Assembly (NCBI RefSeq): GCF_900116425.1
Contig: NZ_FPAS01000002.1
Coordinates: 514,537-578,536, forward strand
Direction of reading: 5' to 3'
DNA: 64,000 nt
DNA from: Lishizhenia tianjinensis
GTDB taxonomy: Bacteria > Bacteroidota > Bacteroidia > Flavobacteriales_D > Crocinitomicaceae
The position numbers were made by a program, and so were the translations under genes. Position 1 is the stretch's first letter. Each line of letters starts with the position of its first letter. The notes under the pieces are model-generated. The model made no database searches. It saw nothing but the letters and a program-made list of their open reading frames with translations, and was not told the DNA's origin. Of this stretch, positions 24,257 to 34,056 are shown piece by piece.

Positions 24257-24727
24257 CTAAAAATCAATTTTTCCGTGATGAATAGCTTTGCGCATGTAGA
24301 GTACTGCTCCAAGTCCAAAACCTAGAACTAAGGCGATGTCTGAAATGTGATAAAGCAATATGTTTCCTTCTAAAACAGCCATAGAACCTTGACTTTTCAA
24401 GAGGTCAATAATGGAATAGAAATGAATTCCCCAACCTATGATTCCAAAGACAAAAAAGGTTAACAAATGTTTGCCTGCCACCTTTACTTTTTCGATAGTT
24501 TCAAGGTTTTCATTCTTCATTAATGCAACGATCAATCCTAAGTTGACAGCAATTAATAACAATAAAATCAAAGGCATGAAAGGAGAGAGGTAGTACTCAA
24601 AGTTGTAGCCTACAATTCTAGAAATAAAGCGTTCTGAAAGTTCTTCTCTGTAATAAAACAAAAGGCCTGTAGCTGTTAGAAAAAGGAGGATTCCTGTCAA
24701 GGCTTTGTTACGAAGTAACTGTATCAT
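24257..24727 (-). CDS. Four-helix membrane protein, unknown function
   Basis: 156 aa with four hydrophobic segments (about 10-25, 47-70, 85-103, 128-146). It starts on the stop codon of the upstream gene (TAATG overlap) and ends 2 nt before aroA, so it is firmly inside this operon. No recognised family. Confidence 0.65.
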   Translation of the reverse strand: MIQLLRNKALTGILLFLTATGLLFYYREELSERFISRIVGYNFEYYLSPFMPLILLLLIAVNLGLIVALMKNENLETIEKVKVAGKHLLTFFVFGIIGWGIHFYSIIDLLKSQGSMAVLEGNILLYHISDIALVLGFGLGAVLYMRKAIHHGKIDF

Positions 24728-25983
24728 TATGTTTTTCGTTTTTTCTTTTTCGCCGCAGGGAAAAGAATATTGTTTAAGATTAATCTATAACCAGGTGAAT
24801 TAGGGTGTAGATTTAAATCCGTGGGAGGATCTCCAACTCTGTGTTGGTAATCTTCTGGGTCGTGCCCACCGTAAAATGTCCAAGTACCCATTCCGTGTTC
24901 TCCATGTATGTAACGCACGGTTCCAAGGTTTTGAGACTCTCCCATTATCGTCACATTAGACTTGATGTATTCTTTTCTGAAATCAGTAGTTTGACCATAA
25001 AAACCAGGGATAATATCTGTGTGACATTGAGTCAACATGGTAGGAACTACATCCCATTTAGCCGAGAAATCAAAAAGCGTGAAATAGTCATTTTTTTCAT
25101 TTACCGTTCTATGGTCTGTTGTACCATCAATTTCACTGTATTCATAGACCAAAGGGTTTTGCTCCAACTGGTAATTTTCAAAGGCGAAGGAGTTGCTGTA
25201 GTCGAGTTTTTCTTGACAGTTTGGATCAGCTGGATCACCGTCATACATGTCTTCACAAATATCCGTTTCATGCGCAGCTAAGGCAATATCATAACTATCT
25301 GTTCCACTGCACATGGTAAATAAAAATCCACCACCAAACACAAAGCTTTTGATGTTTTGGGCAACGGCTAATTTCATATCAGAAACTTTATCGAAGCCCA
25401 ATTTTCTGGCACTTTGTTCTAATTCTGCAACTTGCTGTCTGTACCAAGGAGCGTTTTTAAAACTAGCATAGAATTTTCCGTATTGTCCTGTAAAATCTTC
25501 ATGGTGTAAATGCAGCCAATCGTATTCGACCAATCCACCGGCTATTACTGTACTGTCGTAAACCTTGTCATAAGGAATTTCCGCGTATTCCATCACAAGT
25601 GTAACCGCATCATCCCAAGGTTGTTTTCCTCCAGGCGTGTAAACGGCAATCTTTGGCGCTTTTTCTAATTGTACAACTTCTTGGTTGACTTCAGGATTGG
25701 AAATTTCTCTTTTTATGGATTCAACTTGACCATCTGCCAAGATCTCATAACTCACGCCACGGATGATGAGCATGTCTTCTATCGTGCTTAGATGAGGCAT
25801 GAGAAAAGCACCTCCTCTGTAGTTCAATAACCATTCAATCACTACTTCATTTTCCAACACATAAAAAGCGGCACCGTAAGCTTTCAAATGATTGCTTTGT
25901 CCTGCATCCATTGGGACGATAATCTGCGTTGCTTTGGCTTGTAAACCAAGAACTAGAAAAAGAAAGAATAAGATTTTTTGCAT
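24727..25983 (-). CDS. Conserved exported protein often labelled asparagine synthetase B
   Basis: 418 aa. Signal peptide (MQKILFFLFLVLGLQAKA), then a region with a glutamine-amidotransferase-like flavour (KIAVYTPGGKQPWDDAVTLVM, GGLVEYDWLHLHHEDFTGQ, FVFGGGFLFTMCSGTDSYDIAL) and a C-terminal part with HGEHGMGTWTFYGGHDPEDYQH. I recall orthologues in Flavobacteria annotated as asparagine synthetase B, but no AsnB Ntn-hydrolase Cys2 or PP-loop is present, so that name looks wrong. Exported, possibly a surface or periplasmic enzyme of unknown reaction. The tail is very basic (AAKKKKRKT). Confidence 0.65.
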   Translation of the reverse strand: MQKILFFLFLVLGLQAKATQIIVPMDAGQSNHLKAYGAAFYVLENEVVIEWLLNYRGGAFLMPHLSTIEDMLIIRGVSYEILADGQVESIKREISNPEVNQEVVQLEKAPKIAVYTPGGKQPWDDAVTLVMEYAEIPYDKVYDSTVIAGGLVEYDWLHLHHEDFTGQYGKFYASFKNAPWYRQQVAELEQSARKLGFDKVSDMKLAVAQNIKSFVFGGGFLFTMCSGTDSYDIALAAHETDICEDMYDGDPADPNCQEKLDYSNSFAFENYQLEQNPLVYEYSEIDGTTDHRTVNEKNDYFTLFDFSAKWDVVPTMLTQCHTDIIPGFYGQTTDFRKEYIKSNVTIMGESQNLGTVRYIHGEHGMGTWTFYGGHDPEDYQHRVGDPPTDLNLHPNSPGYRLILNNILFPAAKKKKRKT

Positions 25984-27878: not shown

Positions 27879-30800
27879 ATGCGCATAGAAAAGGCCAGGC
27901 AAAACAATCTTAAAAATGTATCCCTCACTTTACCGGAGAAGCAGTTAATCGTGGTAACCGGACTCTCAGGGTCTGGAAAATCATCTCTAGCTATGGGGGT
28001 GATTGGGAATGAAGGATACCGTTATTTTTTAGAAAGTTTACCCGCTTACAATCAACAAAATGCGCAACGTATTCCATCTGCTGATGTTGATGAAATCAAA
28101 GACTTACCACCCGTTATTAAAGTGGAGCAAAGCAAAAGATTTCAGTCCATCAATGCCACTTTTGGGACTTTGTCTGAATTAACACCTTTGTTCCGTATAC
28201 TCTTTGCGCGCTATGCTGGAGAAGGTTCCATGAGTAAATCTTTGTTTTCTTTCAATCATCCCAAGGGGGCTTGTGAAACCTGTAGAGGGATAGGAGAAGC
28301 TGAGTACATAGATTTAAAGAAGTTGGTGGGGGATCCAAATAAAACTTTGCGTGAAGGTGCTATCGTAACAACACTTCCCAATGGATACATCACCTATTCT
28401 CAGGTAACGGTGGATGAACTCAACAAAGTGTGTAATGCTCATGGATTTTCTGTAGACGTTCCGTGGAAAGATTTGACAGCAGAGCAACAAGATGTCATAC
28501 CTAATGGAAGCGATAAACTCAAAGTTTTTTACGGAAAACATAGCTTAGAATCTCGCTTGCGCTGGGAAGGATTGAAAGCTAAACCCAGAGAAGAAGGATA
28601 CTATAAAGGAATGTTACCCATCATGTACGATATCCTCAAGCGCGATAGGAATGCCAATATTTTGAAGTTCGTGAGTGCAAAAGAATGCCCAAGTTGTAGG
28701 GGAGCACGCATCAAAGCGGAACATTTGAAATACAGATGGCAAGGGTTGAGTTTTAGAGAATGGATGGATCTTCCCTTAAATGAACTTTATAAACAATTGA
28801 AAGGTCTTTCATTAAAAGGTGGTGAGGCAGTATTGGTGAATAAATTATGTACGCAACTCTATGACCTCATTCATTTGGGGATGGAACATTATCAATTGAG
28901 TAGTCCGAGCACGGCTATATCTTCGGGTGATGCCCAACGTATGAAGTTGGTGAAACAAGTCAACAGTAATCTACAGGGGATTTTGTATGTGTTTGATGAA
29001 CCATCTATTGGTTTACCGGTAGCCTATCAAAAGCATTTGCGATTGATTATCGATAGACTCCTCGCCAAAGGAAATACAGTAATGGTTGTTGAGCACGATT
29101 TGAAATTTATTCAGTCTGCAGATTGGATCGTAGAGCTCGGACCCAAAGCGGGAGGTGAAGGCGGTGAAATCATTTTTAACGGAAGTAAAGATGAGTTCTT
29201 AGTGGATAATAAACTGAATTCTCCCACACGTTTGGCGTTGGAAGAGAAGCTTAAACCCTCAAATCCCGTAAAGCAAGATGAGGGGTTGAAAAAATTACAA
29301 GGTTCGTTGTCTGTATACTCTAGGAAATCAAAGGAAGTACTGGGGTTCATTGATCAATTTACTGAAAGAAAAGGATATAATACACACACTGTAAGCGATC
29401 AGCCCATAGGAAAAACGCCACGTAGTAACCCTGCCACTTACACAGGTTTGGCGGATAAAATTAGAGATCTCTTGGCCAAAACGGAAAAAGCCAAACAAAT
29501 GAAACTGGCCAAAGGTGCTTTCTCCTTCAATAATAAGGCAGGAAGATGTCCTAATTGTGAAGGAGCAGGAGTGATTAGTTTATCCATGAGTGTGATGGGG
29601 AACATCAATCAAACATGTCCGCTTTGTAATGGGAAGCGATTTAACAAGGAGGTTTTTGAAGTTACTTGGGAAGGAAAAAACAGTGCGGAAATCTATAATT
29701 TAAGTGTGAAAGAAGCACTGGACTTTTTTGCTACTGAATCTAAAATCGTGTCCATCCTACAATTGATGAATAAGCTTGGGTTGGGGTATTTAAAGTTAGG
29801 TCAACCCTCGAATACTTTGTCTGGAGGTGAAGCACAACGTATTAAACTCACAAAGTATTTTGCCAAATCTTCTAAACAGACCTTGCTGATTTTAGAAGAG
29901 CCAAGCATAGGTCTACATCACCAAAATGTTAAAGAGTTAGTGCAGGCCTTGCATCAATTAAAAGCGAAAACAGCAGGAATTGTATGTTTCGAAAATCATT
30001 CTTTGTTCCAATCCGAAGCGGATGTTTTTGTAGATAATGCCCCTAAGGTTGAAGAGGAAGAAATTGAAATACCCGTTAAAGAACCACAAAATGAAATTCT
30101 TATTCAGGGAGCGCGAACGCACTTTTTAAAGGATGTGAATATTTCTTTTCCAAAGCACAAACTTTCCGCTGTTACCGGTATTTCTGGTTCGGGAAAATCT
30201 TCTCTGTTGATAGATACTTTACATGCCTATGGTATGCAGGAAATGACGCAACAATTTTCGAGTTATGAGCAGGGTAGAGTGGGTGCGCAGATGCCTTTTG
30301 ATGTAGATCATATCCAAGGCCTGACGCCAACGATATGCGTTACACGAAAAGTGAAAAATTATTCTGCTAAAACAGATTTAGCCCAACAATGTGATATAGA
30401 TAAACGACTCCGTTTTGTATTCTCCCGCAAAGCACAGTTTGAAGGGGAAGATTTATCCGCATCTCATTTTTCTAAAAATCATGAATTAGGGAAATGCGAA
30501 GTCTGCGATGGATATGGTGAAGCACTTGTTCCAGATTTGAATAAAATAGTGCTTGATGCTAACCTAAGTATAGCTGAAGGTGTTTTTGAACACAATAAAT
30601 CTTTGGCGTATTATGGTCAGGCTGCTGGACAGTATATGGCCATTCTAGAAGAAGTGGGTAAAGCCTTTGGTTTTAGTTTAACAACAGCTTTTAAAGATCT
30701 TACAACAGCTCAAAAGAAGGTCGTCTTAAATGGAGTTCCGGACCAAATTTGGGAAGCGCAATGGAGGTTTAAAACTAAGACCAGAGAAGGAGTGCAGTCG

Positions 30801-32360
30801 GTGAAAATGGAGTGGAAAGGACTTTTTACTTATCTACAAGAAGAATATTATAAGACGCGAAAGAATAAAAATATTAGTCAGCTTACGGCTTTGTTTTCTG
30901 AGGAGACATGTGCTACGTGTAAAGGTAGCGGACTTAAAGCAGAACGTTTGAAGTTTACCTTGGGTGCTTTAAATTTTCAAGAGGTAAAGCAATTAAGCTT
31001 GAAAGAATTCGAACATTGGTTAAGTGTAAAGGAAGAGGTTTCTGAAATAGATAATCAACTCAAAAAGCAGCTGGCTCATCATTTAAAAGGCCTCTTAAAA
31101 AAAGCCAAACAATTGCATATCGATTATTTACAGTTGAACCGTAAAGCGAAAACATTGAGCGGTGGAGAGCACCAACGTGTGGCATTGATTCAACAGCTAA
31201 ATTCTCCTTTAAAAGGGATTACTTATGTCTTAGATGAACCCTCTGCTGGTTTGTCGCAAAATAATATAGGGGATGTGCAAAATATCTTAAATGAGCTTGT
31301 AGCAAAAGGAAATACAGTAATTTTTATAGAACATAACAAAGACCTGTTGAAGGCTGCCGATTACCTTGTTGAAATTGGTCCGAAGGCAGGTAGTTTAGGG
31401 GGTGAATTGATGTTCTCGGGTAGTCCAGAACGATTCATACAACAAGATGGAATTCATCCTTACCTGAAAGCGGAGGGGAAAGAACTTCAACTGCGAGCTG
31501 GAAAGGAAAAACTGGTGTTGAAAAACATCGATAAATTCAATCTTAAAAAGGAAGTACTAGAAATTCCTGTAGGAGGTTTAACGGCCTTAACAGGAAACTC
31601 GGGTGTAGGAAAAACGACCTTGGTAAAAGAAGTGATTTTACCAAGTATAGCGCAAGGTGAAGCCGTTCACTGTTCAGCGTGTATTACTCCAAAGTCTTAC
31701 GAGGGGGTACAGTATTTTGAAACTAAGAAACTAAACACGCACAAAGCCACTTTACTTGTGGAGTACTTAGATGTTTTTAAGGAAATCACAAAAGTATTTG
31801 CAAAGGTGAGCGGAGAGAAAGCCAAGTTCTTTTCATGGAAAACGAAAGGTAGTTTTTGCGAAAATTGTAAAGGTGAAGGGATAATTACCACCAGTTTAGA
31901 TCTAGCTGCAAGTACCGCTGAAACTTGTGAAAAATGTAAGGGAACCCGATATGCAGATGAGGTATTGAAGCCTAAGGTAGAAGGTCAAAACATTGCTGAA
32001 GTAATGGCTTTAAATGTAGAAGGAATGATTAATTGGTTACAAGGACAATCTCCGAAAGCCAAGGTTATTTCCAGTTTACAAGAACTTCAGAACATAGGTT
32101 TGGGACATTTACAAATGAACCAAGCCGTTCAAAGTTTGTCTTCCGGAGAAAAACAACGTTTGACCTTGTTGGATTGGAGGAAAGATAAAGTACAAAACCA
32201 ACTCCTCATTTTAGATGAACCCAGCATAGGTTTACATTATTCGGATATAGACCAATTGCTCACCCTTTTAAAGGATTTGTCGCAAAATAATGATGTGCTA
32301 GTGATTGATCACAATGCTTATTTATTGGAGCAGATAGGGGTTGGAGCAGTAATTTATTGA
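27879..32360 (+). CDS. Tandem (double) UvrA-like ATPase, class II UvrA relative
   Basis: 1493 aa, against about 940 for UvrA and about 800 for UvrA2-type proteins. It is two UvrA-like copies in a row. Copy A: Walker A GLSGSGKSS (28-36), signature SSGDAQR (348-354), Walker B DEPSIGL (Asp373); its second module has DQPIGKTPRSNPATY, signature LSGGEAQR (647-654) and EEPSIGL (Glu673-Glu674), but no Walker A. Copy B: Walker A GISGSGKSS (767-775), LSGGEHQR (1093-1100), DEPSAGL (Asp1119); then Walker A GNSGVGKTT (1239-1247), LSSGEKQR (1420-1427), DEPSIGL (Asp1446), but no TPRSNPATY element. UvrA zinc motifs (CETC, CPSC, CPNC/CPLC, CEVC, CATC, CENC/CEKC) are kept. No UvrB-binding domain is obvious. 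Role could be damaged-DNA sensing, drug protection or something else. Confidence 0.88.
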   Translation: MRIEKARQNNLKNVSLTLPEKQLIVVTGLSGSGKSSLAMGVIGNEGYRYFLESLPAYNQQNAQRIPSADVDEIKDLPPVIKVEQSKRFQSINATFGTLSELTPLFRILFARYAGEGSMSKSLFSFNHPKGACETCRGIGEAEYIDLKKLVGDPNKTLREGAIVTTLPNGYITYSQVTVDELNKVCNAHGFSVDVPWKDLTAEQQDVIPNGSDKLKVFYGKHSLESRLRWEGLKAKPREEGYYKGMLPIMYDILKRDRNANILKFVSAKECPSCRGARIKAEHLKYRWQGLSFREWMDLPLNELYKQLKGLSLKGGEAVLVNKLCTQLYDLIHLGMEHYQLSSPSTAISSGDAQRMKLVKQVNSNLQGILYVFDEPSIGLPVAYQKHLRLIIDRLLAKGNTVMVVEHDLKFIQSADWIVELGPKAGGEGGEIIFNGSKDEFLVDNKLNSPTRLALEEKLKPSNPVKQDEGLKKLQGSLSVYSRKSKEVLGFIDQFTERKGYNTHTVSDQPIGKTPRSNPATYTGLADKIRDLLAKTEKAKQMKLAKGAFSFNNKAGRCPNCEGAGVISLSMSVMGNINQTCPLCNGKRFNKEVFEVTWEGKNSAEIYNLSVKEALDFFATESKIVSILQLMNKLGLGYLKLGQPSNTLSGGEAQRIKLTKYFAKSSKQTLLILEEPSIGLHHQNVKELVQALHQLKAKTAGIVCFENHSLFQSEADVFVDNAPKVEEEEIEIPVKEPQNEILIQGARTHFLKDVNISFPKHKLSAVTGISGSGKSSLLIDTLHAYGMQEMTQQFSSYEQGRVGAQMPFDVDHIQGLTPTICVTRKVKNYSAKTDLAQQCDIDKRLRFVFSRKAQFEGEDLSASHFSKNHELGKCEVCDGYGEALVPDLNKIVLDANLSIAEGVFEHNKSLAYYGQAAGQYMAILEEVGKAFGFSLTTAFKDLTTAQKKVVLNGVPDQIWEAQWRFKTKTREGVQSVKMEWKGLFTYLQEEYYKTRKNKNISQLTALFSEETCATCKGSGLKAERLKFTLGALNFQEVKQLSLKEFEHWLSVKEEVSEIDNQLKKQLAHHLKGLLKKAKQLHIDYLQLNRKAKTLSGGEHQRVALIQQLNSPLKGITYVLDEPSAGLSQNNIGDVQNILNELVAKGNTVIFIEHNKDLLKAADYLVEIGPKAGSLGGELMFSGSPERFIQQDGIHPYLKAEGKELQLRAGKEKLVLKNIDKFNLKKEVLEIPVGGLTALTGNSGVGKTTLVKEVILPSIAQGEAVHCSACITPKSYEGVQYFETKKLNTHKATLLVEYLDVFKEITKVFAKVSGEKAKFFSWKTKGSFCENCKGEGIITTSLDLAASTAETCEKCKGTRYADEVLKPKVEGQNIAEVMALNVEGMINWLQGQSPKAKVISSLQELQNIGLGHLQMNQAVQSLSSGEKQRLTLLDWRKDKVQNQLLILDEPSIGLHYSDIDQLLTLLKDLSQNNDVLVIDHNAYLLEQIGVGAVIY

Positions 32361-32386
32361 GACTCATTAAAAAGGGAGTATCTTTG
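32357..32386 (+). promoter_or_regulatory. Promoter of the DEAD-box helicase gene
   Basis: TTG (32357-32359), exactly 19 nt, TATCTTTG (32379-32386): a full consensus match. The TTG overlaps the TGA stop of the uvrA-like gene. It places transcription start near 32392 and so supports ATG 32411 as translation start. Confidence 0.75.
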
Positions 32387-32410
32387 TCAACAAAAAAACA
32401 CTCAAAGCGT

Positions 32411-33547
32411 ATGTCTTTTCAAAATCTCGGTTTAGCACCTTCTTTTACTTCCTTGTTAGAAAAGGAAAATTTCAAACAGCCTTTTCCCATTCAAGAAAAA
32501 GCTATTCCGGAAATATTAAAAGGAAAGGATGTACTGGGTATTGCCCAAACTGGTTCGGGTAAAACAGCGAGTTACGTATTGCCTGTGCTTTCTAATTTGA
32601 AAGTAGATGCTTCTAAAAAGGATAGGCAACCTACAGTACTTGTTTTGGTGCCTACCAGAGAGTTGGCCGAACAGGTGAAAGACGTGTTTCAAAGCTTTGA
32701 GAAAGCATGTGCGCATCCAGTGAAAACCATGGCGATTTATGGAGGTGTTTCAATTAACCCGCAAATGAAAGCCATCTTTGGGGTGAATGTAATTGTAGCA
32801 ACTCCGGGGCGTTTATTGGACTTGATAGACGTGAATGCCCTTCAGCTCAACAAAGTGCAAACACTTATTTTGGATGAAGCGGATAAATTATTGAACCTTG
32901 GTTTTAAAGATGAGATCAATAAGGTTTTGTCCTTGTTGCCACCAAAGCGTCAAAACTTATTGTTTTCTGCTACTTTGAGTGAGAAAATTGAAGGATTGCA
33001 CCGTTTATTGTTGAAGAATCCTGTAACGGTTCAAGTGAGTTCTGAAACGTGGGATATAGCGCAAATCAAGCAAATATCTTACAGCATAGCCGAAGAAAAG
33101 AAAGGTCCGTTCTTGAGGTATTTGATCAAAAGTGGAGAGTTAAACCAAGTGTTGGTGTTTACAGCTTCTACTTACAAGGCAGATAACGTTGCCGACAAAC
33201 TGCGTAAGAATGGAATAGACGCTAAAGCTATTCACGGAAAGAAAACCCAAGGTGTACGAAATAAAACATTGAAGGAATTTAAAACAGGTAAACTTAGGGT
33301 TTTGGTTACGACTGATTTGTTGGCAAGAGGTATAGATATTGCCTTTTTACCCTATGTGATCAATTACGAATTACCGCGTTCTCCAAAAGATTATGTACAC
33401 AGAATTGGTAGGACAGGTAGAGCCGAAGCAGATGGAGTGGCCATTAGTTTAATCAGTCCAGAAGATGAGCACCACTTCAAAGTCATTCAAAAGAAAATGA
33501 AGGTGCAAGTGGAGCGAATAGATGGGGATGCTATGGATATTGGGTAG
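32411..33547 (+). CDS. DEAD-box RNA helicase (RhlE-like)
   Basis: 378 aa from ATG 32411 (MSFQNLGLA); an open frame reaches 18 codons further up but crosses the promoter. Motifs in order: Q motif FKQPFPIQEKAIP, AQTGSGKTA (I), PTRELAEQ (Ia), TPGRLLDL (Ib), DEAD (II), SAT (III), HRIGRTGRAE (VI). No long C-terminal extension. Likely role in ribosome assembly or mRNA turnover at low temperature. Gap to the convergent gene at its end is 14 nt. Confidence 0.92.
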   Translation: MSFQNLGLAPSFTSLLEKENFKQPFPIQEKAIPEILKGKDVLGIAQTGSGKTASYVLPVLSNLKVDASKKDRQPTVLVLVPTRELAEQVKDVFQSFEKACAHPVKTMAIYGGVSINPQMKAIFGVNVIVATPGRLLDLIDVNALQLNKVQTLILDEADKLLNLGFKDEINKVLSLLPPKRQNLLFSATLSEKIEGLHRLLLKNPVTVQVSSETWDIAQIKQISYSIAEEKKGPFLRYLIKSGELNQVLVFTASTYKADNVADKLRKNGIDAKAIHGKKTQGVRNKTLKEFKTGKLRVLVTTDLLARGIDIAFLPYVINYELPRSPKDYVHRIGRTGRAEADGVAISLISPEDEHHFKVIQKKMKVQVERIDGDAMDIG

Positions 33548-33561
33548 CGTATTTGAATGTC

Positions 33562-34056
33562 CTATTTGTAGTAACGGATGCTTGTAAAGGCTTCTTTATT
33601 TTCATTTAACACACATTCAATAAGTGTATTTTTTTCGTAAAAAAATGAGAGGGAATTCCATCTGCCTTCATAAACATTTAAGCCTTTTTTATAGATGAAA
33701 TCTACGCATCTTATGTTTCCATTTGGGAAGTAATGGAATTTTGCGATTACACCTTCTGTTTTAATGTGCTTTATTTGTGAAGAATTTCTTTTGTATTTGA
33801 TGTTGTAATTAGCTTCTAAAAAGGAGGTGTCTGGGTGGAAATAAGAATTATTATCTAAAGTACAGAATACAAAATCACCATCTACGATTTCAATAGAGTC
33901 ATAATCATTTTTTACTTGAAGTAATTGAATGATTTGCGCATCAACTGCTATAGAGAATACGTCCCAAACGTGTTGATCCTCTTTAATTTCTTGAGCAAAA
34001 GAAATACTTGTAACAAATAGGAAGATGGATGTGAAGAAGTAAATTGTGGTTTTCAT
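33562..34056 (-). CDS. Exported protein, unknown function (MORN/antitoxin-like beta repeats)
   Basis: 164 aa. Signal peptide (ending SISFAQ). The second half (AKFHYFPNGNIRCVDFIYKKGLNVYEGRWNSLSFFYEKNTLIECVLNENK) has the repeating pattern of short antiparallel strands seen in MORN-like repeats, though the match is weak. Mature protein likely periplasmic. No operon partner is clear. Confidence 0.55.
   Translation of the reverse strand: MKTTIYFFTSIFLFVTSISFAQEIKEDQHVWDVFSIAVDAQIIQLLQVKNDYDSIEIVDGDFVFCTLDNNSYFHPDTSFLEANYNIKYKRNSSQIKHIKTEGVIAKFHYFPNGNIRCVDFIYKKGLNVYEGRWNSLSFFYEKNTLIECVLNENKEAFTSIRYYK

Follow-up and report, generated by a model that had tools for sequence, protein, structure and literature searches.

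What does a single protein chain that carries two UvrA copies do in a bacterium, and why has one of its ATP sites been dismantled? This question is raised by a tandem UvrA-like gene of Lishizhenia tianjinensis, located in the 64,000-nucleotide stretch of contig NZ_FPAS01000002.1 analyzed here (positions 514,537 to 578,536; hereafter the window). We propose, with a confidence a little above even, that its product is a covalent, asymmetric pseudo-dimer of class II UvrA type that acts on a specific DNA lesion or ligand, driven by ATP and without UvrBC. The protein probably recognizes DNA that carries one particular kind of damage or bound drug, and does so without the help of UvrB.

Translation of the gene confirmed the preliminary description of a 1493-residue tandem UvrA with four ABC signatures (residues 347, 647, 1093 and 1420), four Walker B motifs (369-376 with D373, 669-676 with E673, 1115-1122 and 1442-1449) and only three Walker A motifs (starting at residues 28, 767 and 1239). 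Both copies, A and B, belong to the UvrA superfamily, as each possesses the UvrA fold, two nucleotide-binding domains (NBDs), an insertion domain and zinc modules 2 and 3, the cysteines of which are invariant. AlphaFold models of two overlapping fragments, residues 1-1200 and 465-1493, have mean predicted local distance difference test (pLDDT) scores of 85.5 and 85.2, and both half models match UvrA chains (Z about 34 to PDB 2r6f); among the top matches, the self-resistance protein Ecm16 gave the lowest root-mean-square deviation (2.7-2.8 A). Since the chain contains two UvrA folds, both complete, the suggested single-chain pseudo-dimer is plausible, its dimer geometry being presumed. The copies are only 31% identical to each other, which points to an old fusion and not to an assembly duplication. 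With TIGR00630 (uvrA), the protein scores above the cutoff (1062 versus 729.8, with two copies in the chain), and automatic annotation may for this reason read it as an ordinary excinuclease UvrA. Its score with the NCBIfam model of class I UvrA, NF001503, is 1039.7, below the curated cutoff of 1147.

Copy A aligns to positions 26-135 of the 2r6f chain and resumes at position 278, with only its residues 113-115 lying in between, and positions 136-277 of 2r6f have no counterpart. The same gap was found between copy B and PDB 9gxk. The approximately 142 residues missing from each copy correspond to the UvrB-binding domain with zinc module 1, and the protein is therefore not a class I (excision repair) UvrA. 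Class II UvrAs are characterized by the absence of the UvrB-binding domain, two zinc modules and coexistence with UvrA1 (PMC5128194, PMC10192343), and all three features are found here. The host genome (13 contigs, 99.99% complete) encodes two full-length UvrAs whose matches cover the entire uvrA model, one UvrB and one UvrC; thus, the tandem protein is a third, extra UvrA-like protein. With the class II representative UvrA2 of Deinococcus radiodurans (PDB 2vf7) it shares the fold, the missing UvrB-binding domain, two zinc modules per copy, the insertion domain and the occurrence in addition to a normal UvrA. However, class II UvrA is a single-copy protein with two intact ATP sites, whereas the tandem protein has two copies per chain and one dead site, and its halves occupy their own branches in the tree. 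Three single-copy UvrA-like proteins of Bacteroidota (L086, L175 and L178; 834-882 residues) form a long branch apart from the class II proteins of about 750 residues.

In UvrA, the proximal ATP site is composed of ATP-binding domain I and signature II, and the distal site of ATP-binding domain II and signature I (PMC6486640). We sorted the motifs of 97 distinct sequences of the tandem architecture by composite site. The short clade includes 67 sequences of about 1500 residues (the window protein and 66 orthologues) and the long clade 28 sequences of about 1600 residues. The copy A proximal site is canonical in all its elements and invariant throughout the short clade (K34, Q84, D373, E374, H406 and the signature LSGGEAQR, preceded by five residues by the Gln typical of proximal sites). 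In the copy A distal site of the same sequences, (i) Walker A is missing, (ii) the Walker B Asp is replaced by Glu in 65 of 67, (iii) the switch His is Asn in 63 of 67, (iv) signature I reads SSGD instead of SGGE in nearly all, and (v) the adenine-stacking Arg is Thr or Ser in all 67. The copy B proximal site retains Walker A, Walker B and the His, with an LSSGE signature, and its Q-loop Gln is replaced by Arg in 65 of 67 sequences. The copy B distal site retains Walker A, Walker B, the His, the signature and the Arg, with a changed Q-loop. Degeneration is thus gathered in one composite site of the four, copy A distal, and is not scattered; by rough arithmetic, five degenerate elements of 20 would fall in a single site with a chance of about 4 in 15504 if they were independent, which they are not fully.

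These results sharpen the preliminary description. Its partly dead ATP sites are narrowed to one, and the Glu-Glu in place of Asp-Glu that it reported for the second Walker B of copy A is indeed present (E673). Walker A has been lost from module 2 of copy A as claimed. The module is shorter by about 40 residues and not 80 (82 residues from the end of NBD1 to DQPIG, versus 122 in the long relatives), and what persists of the P-loop is a strand-helix remnant. Module 2 of copy A retains the TPRSNPATY element (residues 506-521), whereas that of copy B has a diverged form of it (1281-1296). The two copies have therefore changed in different ways, but the losses are no mirror images, since module 2 of copy B lost the Q-loop/PRSNPATY element and keeps its ATP chemistry. 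The SSGD signature, Asn706 at the switch position and the absence of the UvrB-binding domain from both copies had been overlooked. We found no hidden Walker A, no orthologues of about 750-940 residues of the kind expected from a recent duplication, and no close relative whose two copies each possess both elements.

The order of decay can be read from the relatives. All 66 short-clade orthologues carry the same loss in the copy A distal site, and the 28 long-clade proteins represent earlier stages. In the latter, signature I of copy A usually reads RASE or SASE, the distal Walker B Asp has in most cases given way to Ile, Val, Thr or Met, and 25 of the 28 proteins have Gln at the switch His position; the Walker A Lys, by contrast, is missing from only three of them. 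This pattern indicates that the signature, Walker B and His of the copy A distal site decayed first and the P-loop last. In a diverged tandem clade (L060 and L061) both distal sites are degraded, copy B also being devoid of Walker A, the switch His and signature I, and Walker A and Walker B of both proximal sites are kept. Copy B of these two proteins evolves very fast, and they constitute a natural double variant.

The tandem gene is under strong purifying selection: the ratio of nonsynonymous to synonymous substitution rates (dN/dS) is 0.05-0.14 for the whole gene in 18 close pairs, being lowest in the copy A insertion domain (0.038) and highest in the Walker A remnant of module A2 (0.27). 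Together with an architecture common to 97 distinct sequences, these values argue that the arrangement is not due to chance. The insertion domain is the part of UvrA that reads DNA damage and is otherwise variable. In ten matched hosts, the mean identity of insertion domains is 74% for copy A, 59% for the second UvrA, 50% for copy B and 40% for UvrA1. The insertion domain of Ecm16 is required for DNA binding and for coupling to a specific ligand, and its resistance does not involve UvrB (PMC10192343). By analogy, the unusual constraint on the copy A insertion domain suggests that it reads one specific DNA target common to the hosts.

Table 1. Features of the tandem UvrA-like gene, in window coordinates. 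A1, A2, B1 and B2 are the first and second modules of copies A and B.
Feature	Coordinates	Strand	Basis
Tandem UvrA-like gene, 1493 aa	27879..32360	+	translated open reading frame
Copy A, residues 1-728, UvrA fold without UvrB-binding domain	27879..30062	+	
A1 Walker A, copy A proximal, intact, K34 invariant	27960..27986	+	
Copy A junction at missing UvrB-binding domain	28212..28226	+	alignment to 2r6f
Copy A insertion domain, residues 133-270, exceptionally conserved	28275..28688	+	
A1 signature ISSGDAQR, degenerate, copy A distal	28917..28940	+	
A1 Walker B, intact	28983..29006	+	
A2 Walker A remnant GSLSVYSRKSKEVLGF, P-loop lost, copy A distal	29301..29348	+	
A2 Q-loop and TPRSNPATY element, retained, residues 506-521	29394..29441	+	
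A2 signature LSGGEAQR, invariant in short clade, copy A proximal	29817..29840	+	
A2 Walker B LLILEEPS, Asp to Glu (E673), copy A distal	29883..29906	+	
A2 switch His position, Asn706, copy A distal	29994..29996	+	
Copy B, residues 736-1493, UvrA fold without UvrB-binding domain	30084..32357	+	
B1 Walker A, copy B proximal, intact	30177..30203	+	
B1 Q-loop Gln to Arg823, conserved in both clades	30345..30347	+	
Copy B junction at missing UvrB-binding domain	30426..30443	+	alignment to 9gxk
Copy B insertion domain, residues 874-1010, conservation far below that of copy A	30498..30908	+	
B1 signature LSGGEHQR, copy B distal, intact	31155..31178	+	
B1 Walker B, intact	31221..31244	+	
B2 Walker A GNSGVGKTT, copy B distal, intact	31593..31619	+	
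B2 diverged Q-loop and PRSNPATY region, residues 1281-1296	31719..31766	+	
B2 signature LSSGEKQR, copy B proximal, mildly altered	32136..32159	+	
B2 Walker B LLILDEPS, intact	32202..32225	+	

Among 59 sampled genomes, full-length orthologues were found, besides the host itself, in two members of one sister genus only. Within 399 genomes of the order, this genus (Brumimicrobium and kin) has the version of about 1500 residues, 61-63% identical to the window protein, and other genera have versions of about 1600 residues. When the copy A insertion domain was used to search 84,980 species genomes, 145 encoding loci were identified, of which the best 80 were kept; because the orthologue counts rest on contig searches started from this single domain, more diverged forms may have been missed. 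All loci named by organism among these best 80 belong to Bacteroidota, and their hosts include Salegentibacter, Zunongwangia, Christiangramia, Psychroflexus, Mesonia, Robertkochia, Brumimicrobium, Echinicola, Marivirga, Roseivirga, Lewinella and others. A set of 296 genomes from across the Bacteroidota yielded no further tandem copies, only single-copy UvrAs. The tandem gene was likewise not found in plasmids (only distant UvrAs, with a best listed identity of 34%, and no DNA match), phage records (only UvrAs of ordinary or class II length) or viral contigs. In a few genomes (L152, Lacinutrix neustonica, as well as L081, L082 and L085) the tandem gene is broken by frameshifts or a stop, which reflects either decay or sequencing error.

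In the phylogenetic tree, the A halves form one clade and the B halves another, with matching main branches and long branches in copy B, and the tandem protein likely arose by a single old fusion. The position of the two clades relative to class II and UvrA1 is not resolved in this tree. The window gene groups with those of Echinicola, Zunongwangia, Sinomicrobium and kin, and not with the gene of Brumimicrobium, a member of the same family (99% support); a tree that keeps the family together is rejected, its log-likelihood being 56 lower, although the window gene sits on a long branch. In contrast, the UvrA1 of the host is nearest to that of Brumimicrobium (72% identity versus 60-67% for other hosts). 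This conflict indicates horizontal transfer of the tandem gene. Recent transfer is further indicated by 95-96% identity across different genera, with a synonymous divergence (dS) of 0.25-0.28, between L091 and L095 (Pustulibacterium, Zunongwangia) and between L140 and L145 (Mesonia, Salegentibacter); the latter two loci also have three downstream genes in common.

No neighbours of the tandem gene are conserved across genera; the adjacent genes are ordinary, unrelated and variable between genera. A DEAD-box (RhlE-like) helicase reading frame (32357-33547, plus strand) shares four bases with the end of the tandem gene, but the two genes do not lie side by side in any of the other genomes examined. 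Two reading frames of the window have no Pfam, NCBIfam or PADLOC match (24727-25983, 418 residues, and 33562-34056, 164 residues, both on the minus strand). Rfam gave no match near the gene, and upstream regions of 67 orthologues yielded nothing beyond A+T-rich words and a weak signal resembling a promoter (18 with it, versus 13 in shuffles).

Several known systems resemble the tandem protein in part. The self-resistance proteins Ecm16 (PDB 7sh1) and DrrC also lack the UvrB-binding domain, but they are single-copy proteins encoded within Streptomyces antibiotic gene clusters; no such cluster was recognized among the ordinary neighbours of the tandem gene, in a survey that included no dedicated cluster search, and its assignment to antibiotic self-resistance proteins was not adopted. 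The chlamydial four-NBD UvrA, which we take to be the subject of NF001885 (1809 positions), likewise has two UvrAs per chain. It is about 300 residues longer, as compared by length and profile score only, and the window protein scores 669 bits against the NF001885 cutoff of 3054, so this identity was rejected. Heterodimeric exporters and CFTR are ABC proteins with one degenerate composite ATP site. The degenerate motifs of the tandem protein are similarly collected in one composite site; however, those proteins are transporters, whereas the tandem protein is not, and its dead site lies inside one UvrA copy. Searches of an open-access literature library for tandem, fused, class II or class III UvrA yielded no account of such a fusion, though an earlier mention is possible.

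How might such a protein work? One chain would supply the four NBDs that an ordinary UvrA gathers as a homodimer, presumably in a dimer-like packing. Copy A, given its proximal site, its PRSNPATY element and the conservation of its insertion domain, may serve as the fixed DNA-recognition half, and copy B as a fast-cycling distal ATPase. Both halves would bind one class of distorted or ligand-bound DNA, and ATP turnover would displace the ligand or keep hold of the site, with no excision by UvrB and UvrC, as proposed for Ecm16. It can be speculated that killing one distal site results in directional scanning and loading, or in longer residence on the target. The distinct repair or drug-protection factor envisaged in the preliminary description gains indirect support from the missing UvrB-binding domain, the nucleotide excision repair genes elsewhere in the genome, and class II UvrA and Ecm16 as the nearest functional relatives. 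Tentatively, the family may even constitute a new class of UvrA, an obligate single-chain heterodimer with copy A as reader and copy B as motor, which has discarded one ATP site and operates outside excision repair. Several points weigh against our proposal. No substrate, phenotype or neighbour links the protein to a drug or lesion, and no biosynthetic or defence cluster is recognizable at the gene, no dedicated cluster search having been run. A directional role of the dead site is speculation, the intramolecular pairing of A with B is unproven, since copy A of one chain might pair in trans with copy A or copy B of another, and the Q-loop changes leave the activity of copy B uncertain.

That the chain instead homodimerizes through A-A and/or B-B contacts into an eight-NBD assembly, with no internal pseudo-dimer, agrees with the homodimers normal for UvrA and class II UvrA (PMC5128194). 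We consider this quite improbable, as the matching A and B trees show halves inherited as one chain and their divergence to different roles fits pairing within it, though both arguments are indirect. It is unlikely, too, that the protein is an accessory damage sensor handing lesions to UvrA1/UvrB via signature domain II or heterocomplexes. This domain of UvrA also contacts DNA and UvrB (PMC6486640), signature II of module A2 with the PRSNPATY element is highly conserved, and UvrB and UvrC occur in the host; yet neither copy retains the main interface for UvrB or zinc module 1, and two complete UvrAs already fill the role. A different type of nucleic-acid motor, for instance a factor that acts against phages, would be in line with the horizontal spread of the gene and with the PADLOC models mad3 and mad8, both of which match the protein. 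Canonical UvrA/UvrA1 scores higher with these models, so the match is generic and the MADS defence identity was rejected; no defence genes were matched among the neighbours scanned with PADLOC, and we regard such a role as very improbable. Finally, a decaying duplicate or an assembly artefact could account for the missing Walker A and for the broken copies in a few genomes (e.g. L152), but it is hardly credible in view of the strong purifying selection, the many orthologues in independent assemblies and the dead site kept beside clean partner motifs.

The covalent pseudo-dimer bears on a wider problem. It is disputed how the UvrA dimer allots scanning and lesion recognition to its four ATP sites, because a mutation in a homodimer strikes both copies. 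Here is a natural UvrA with one distal site dismantled in one half, and a sister clade with both distal sites degraded; together they make site-specific roles testable within a single chain. The conserved insertion domain of copy A, in turn, points to a specific DNA lesion or DNA-binding compound.

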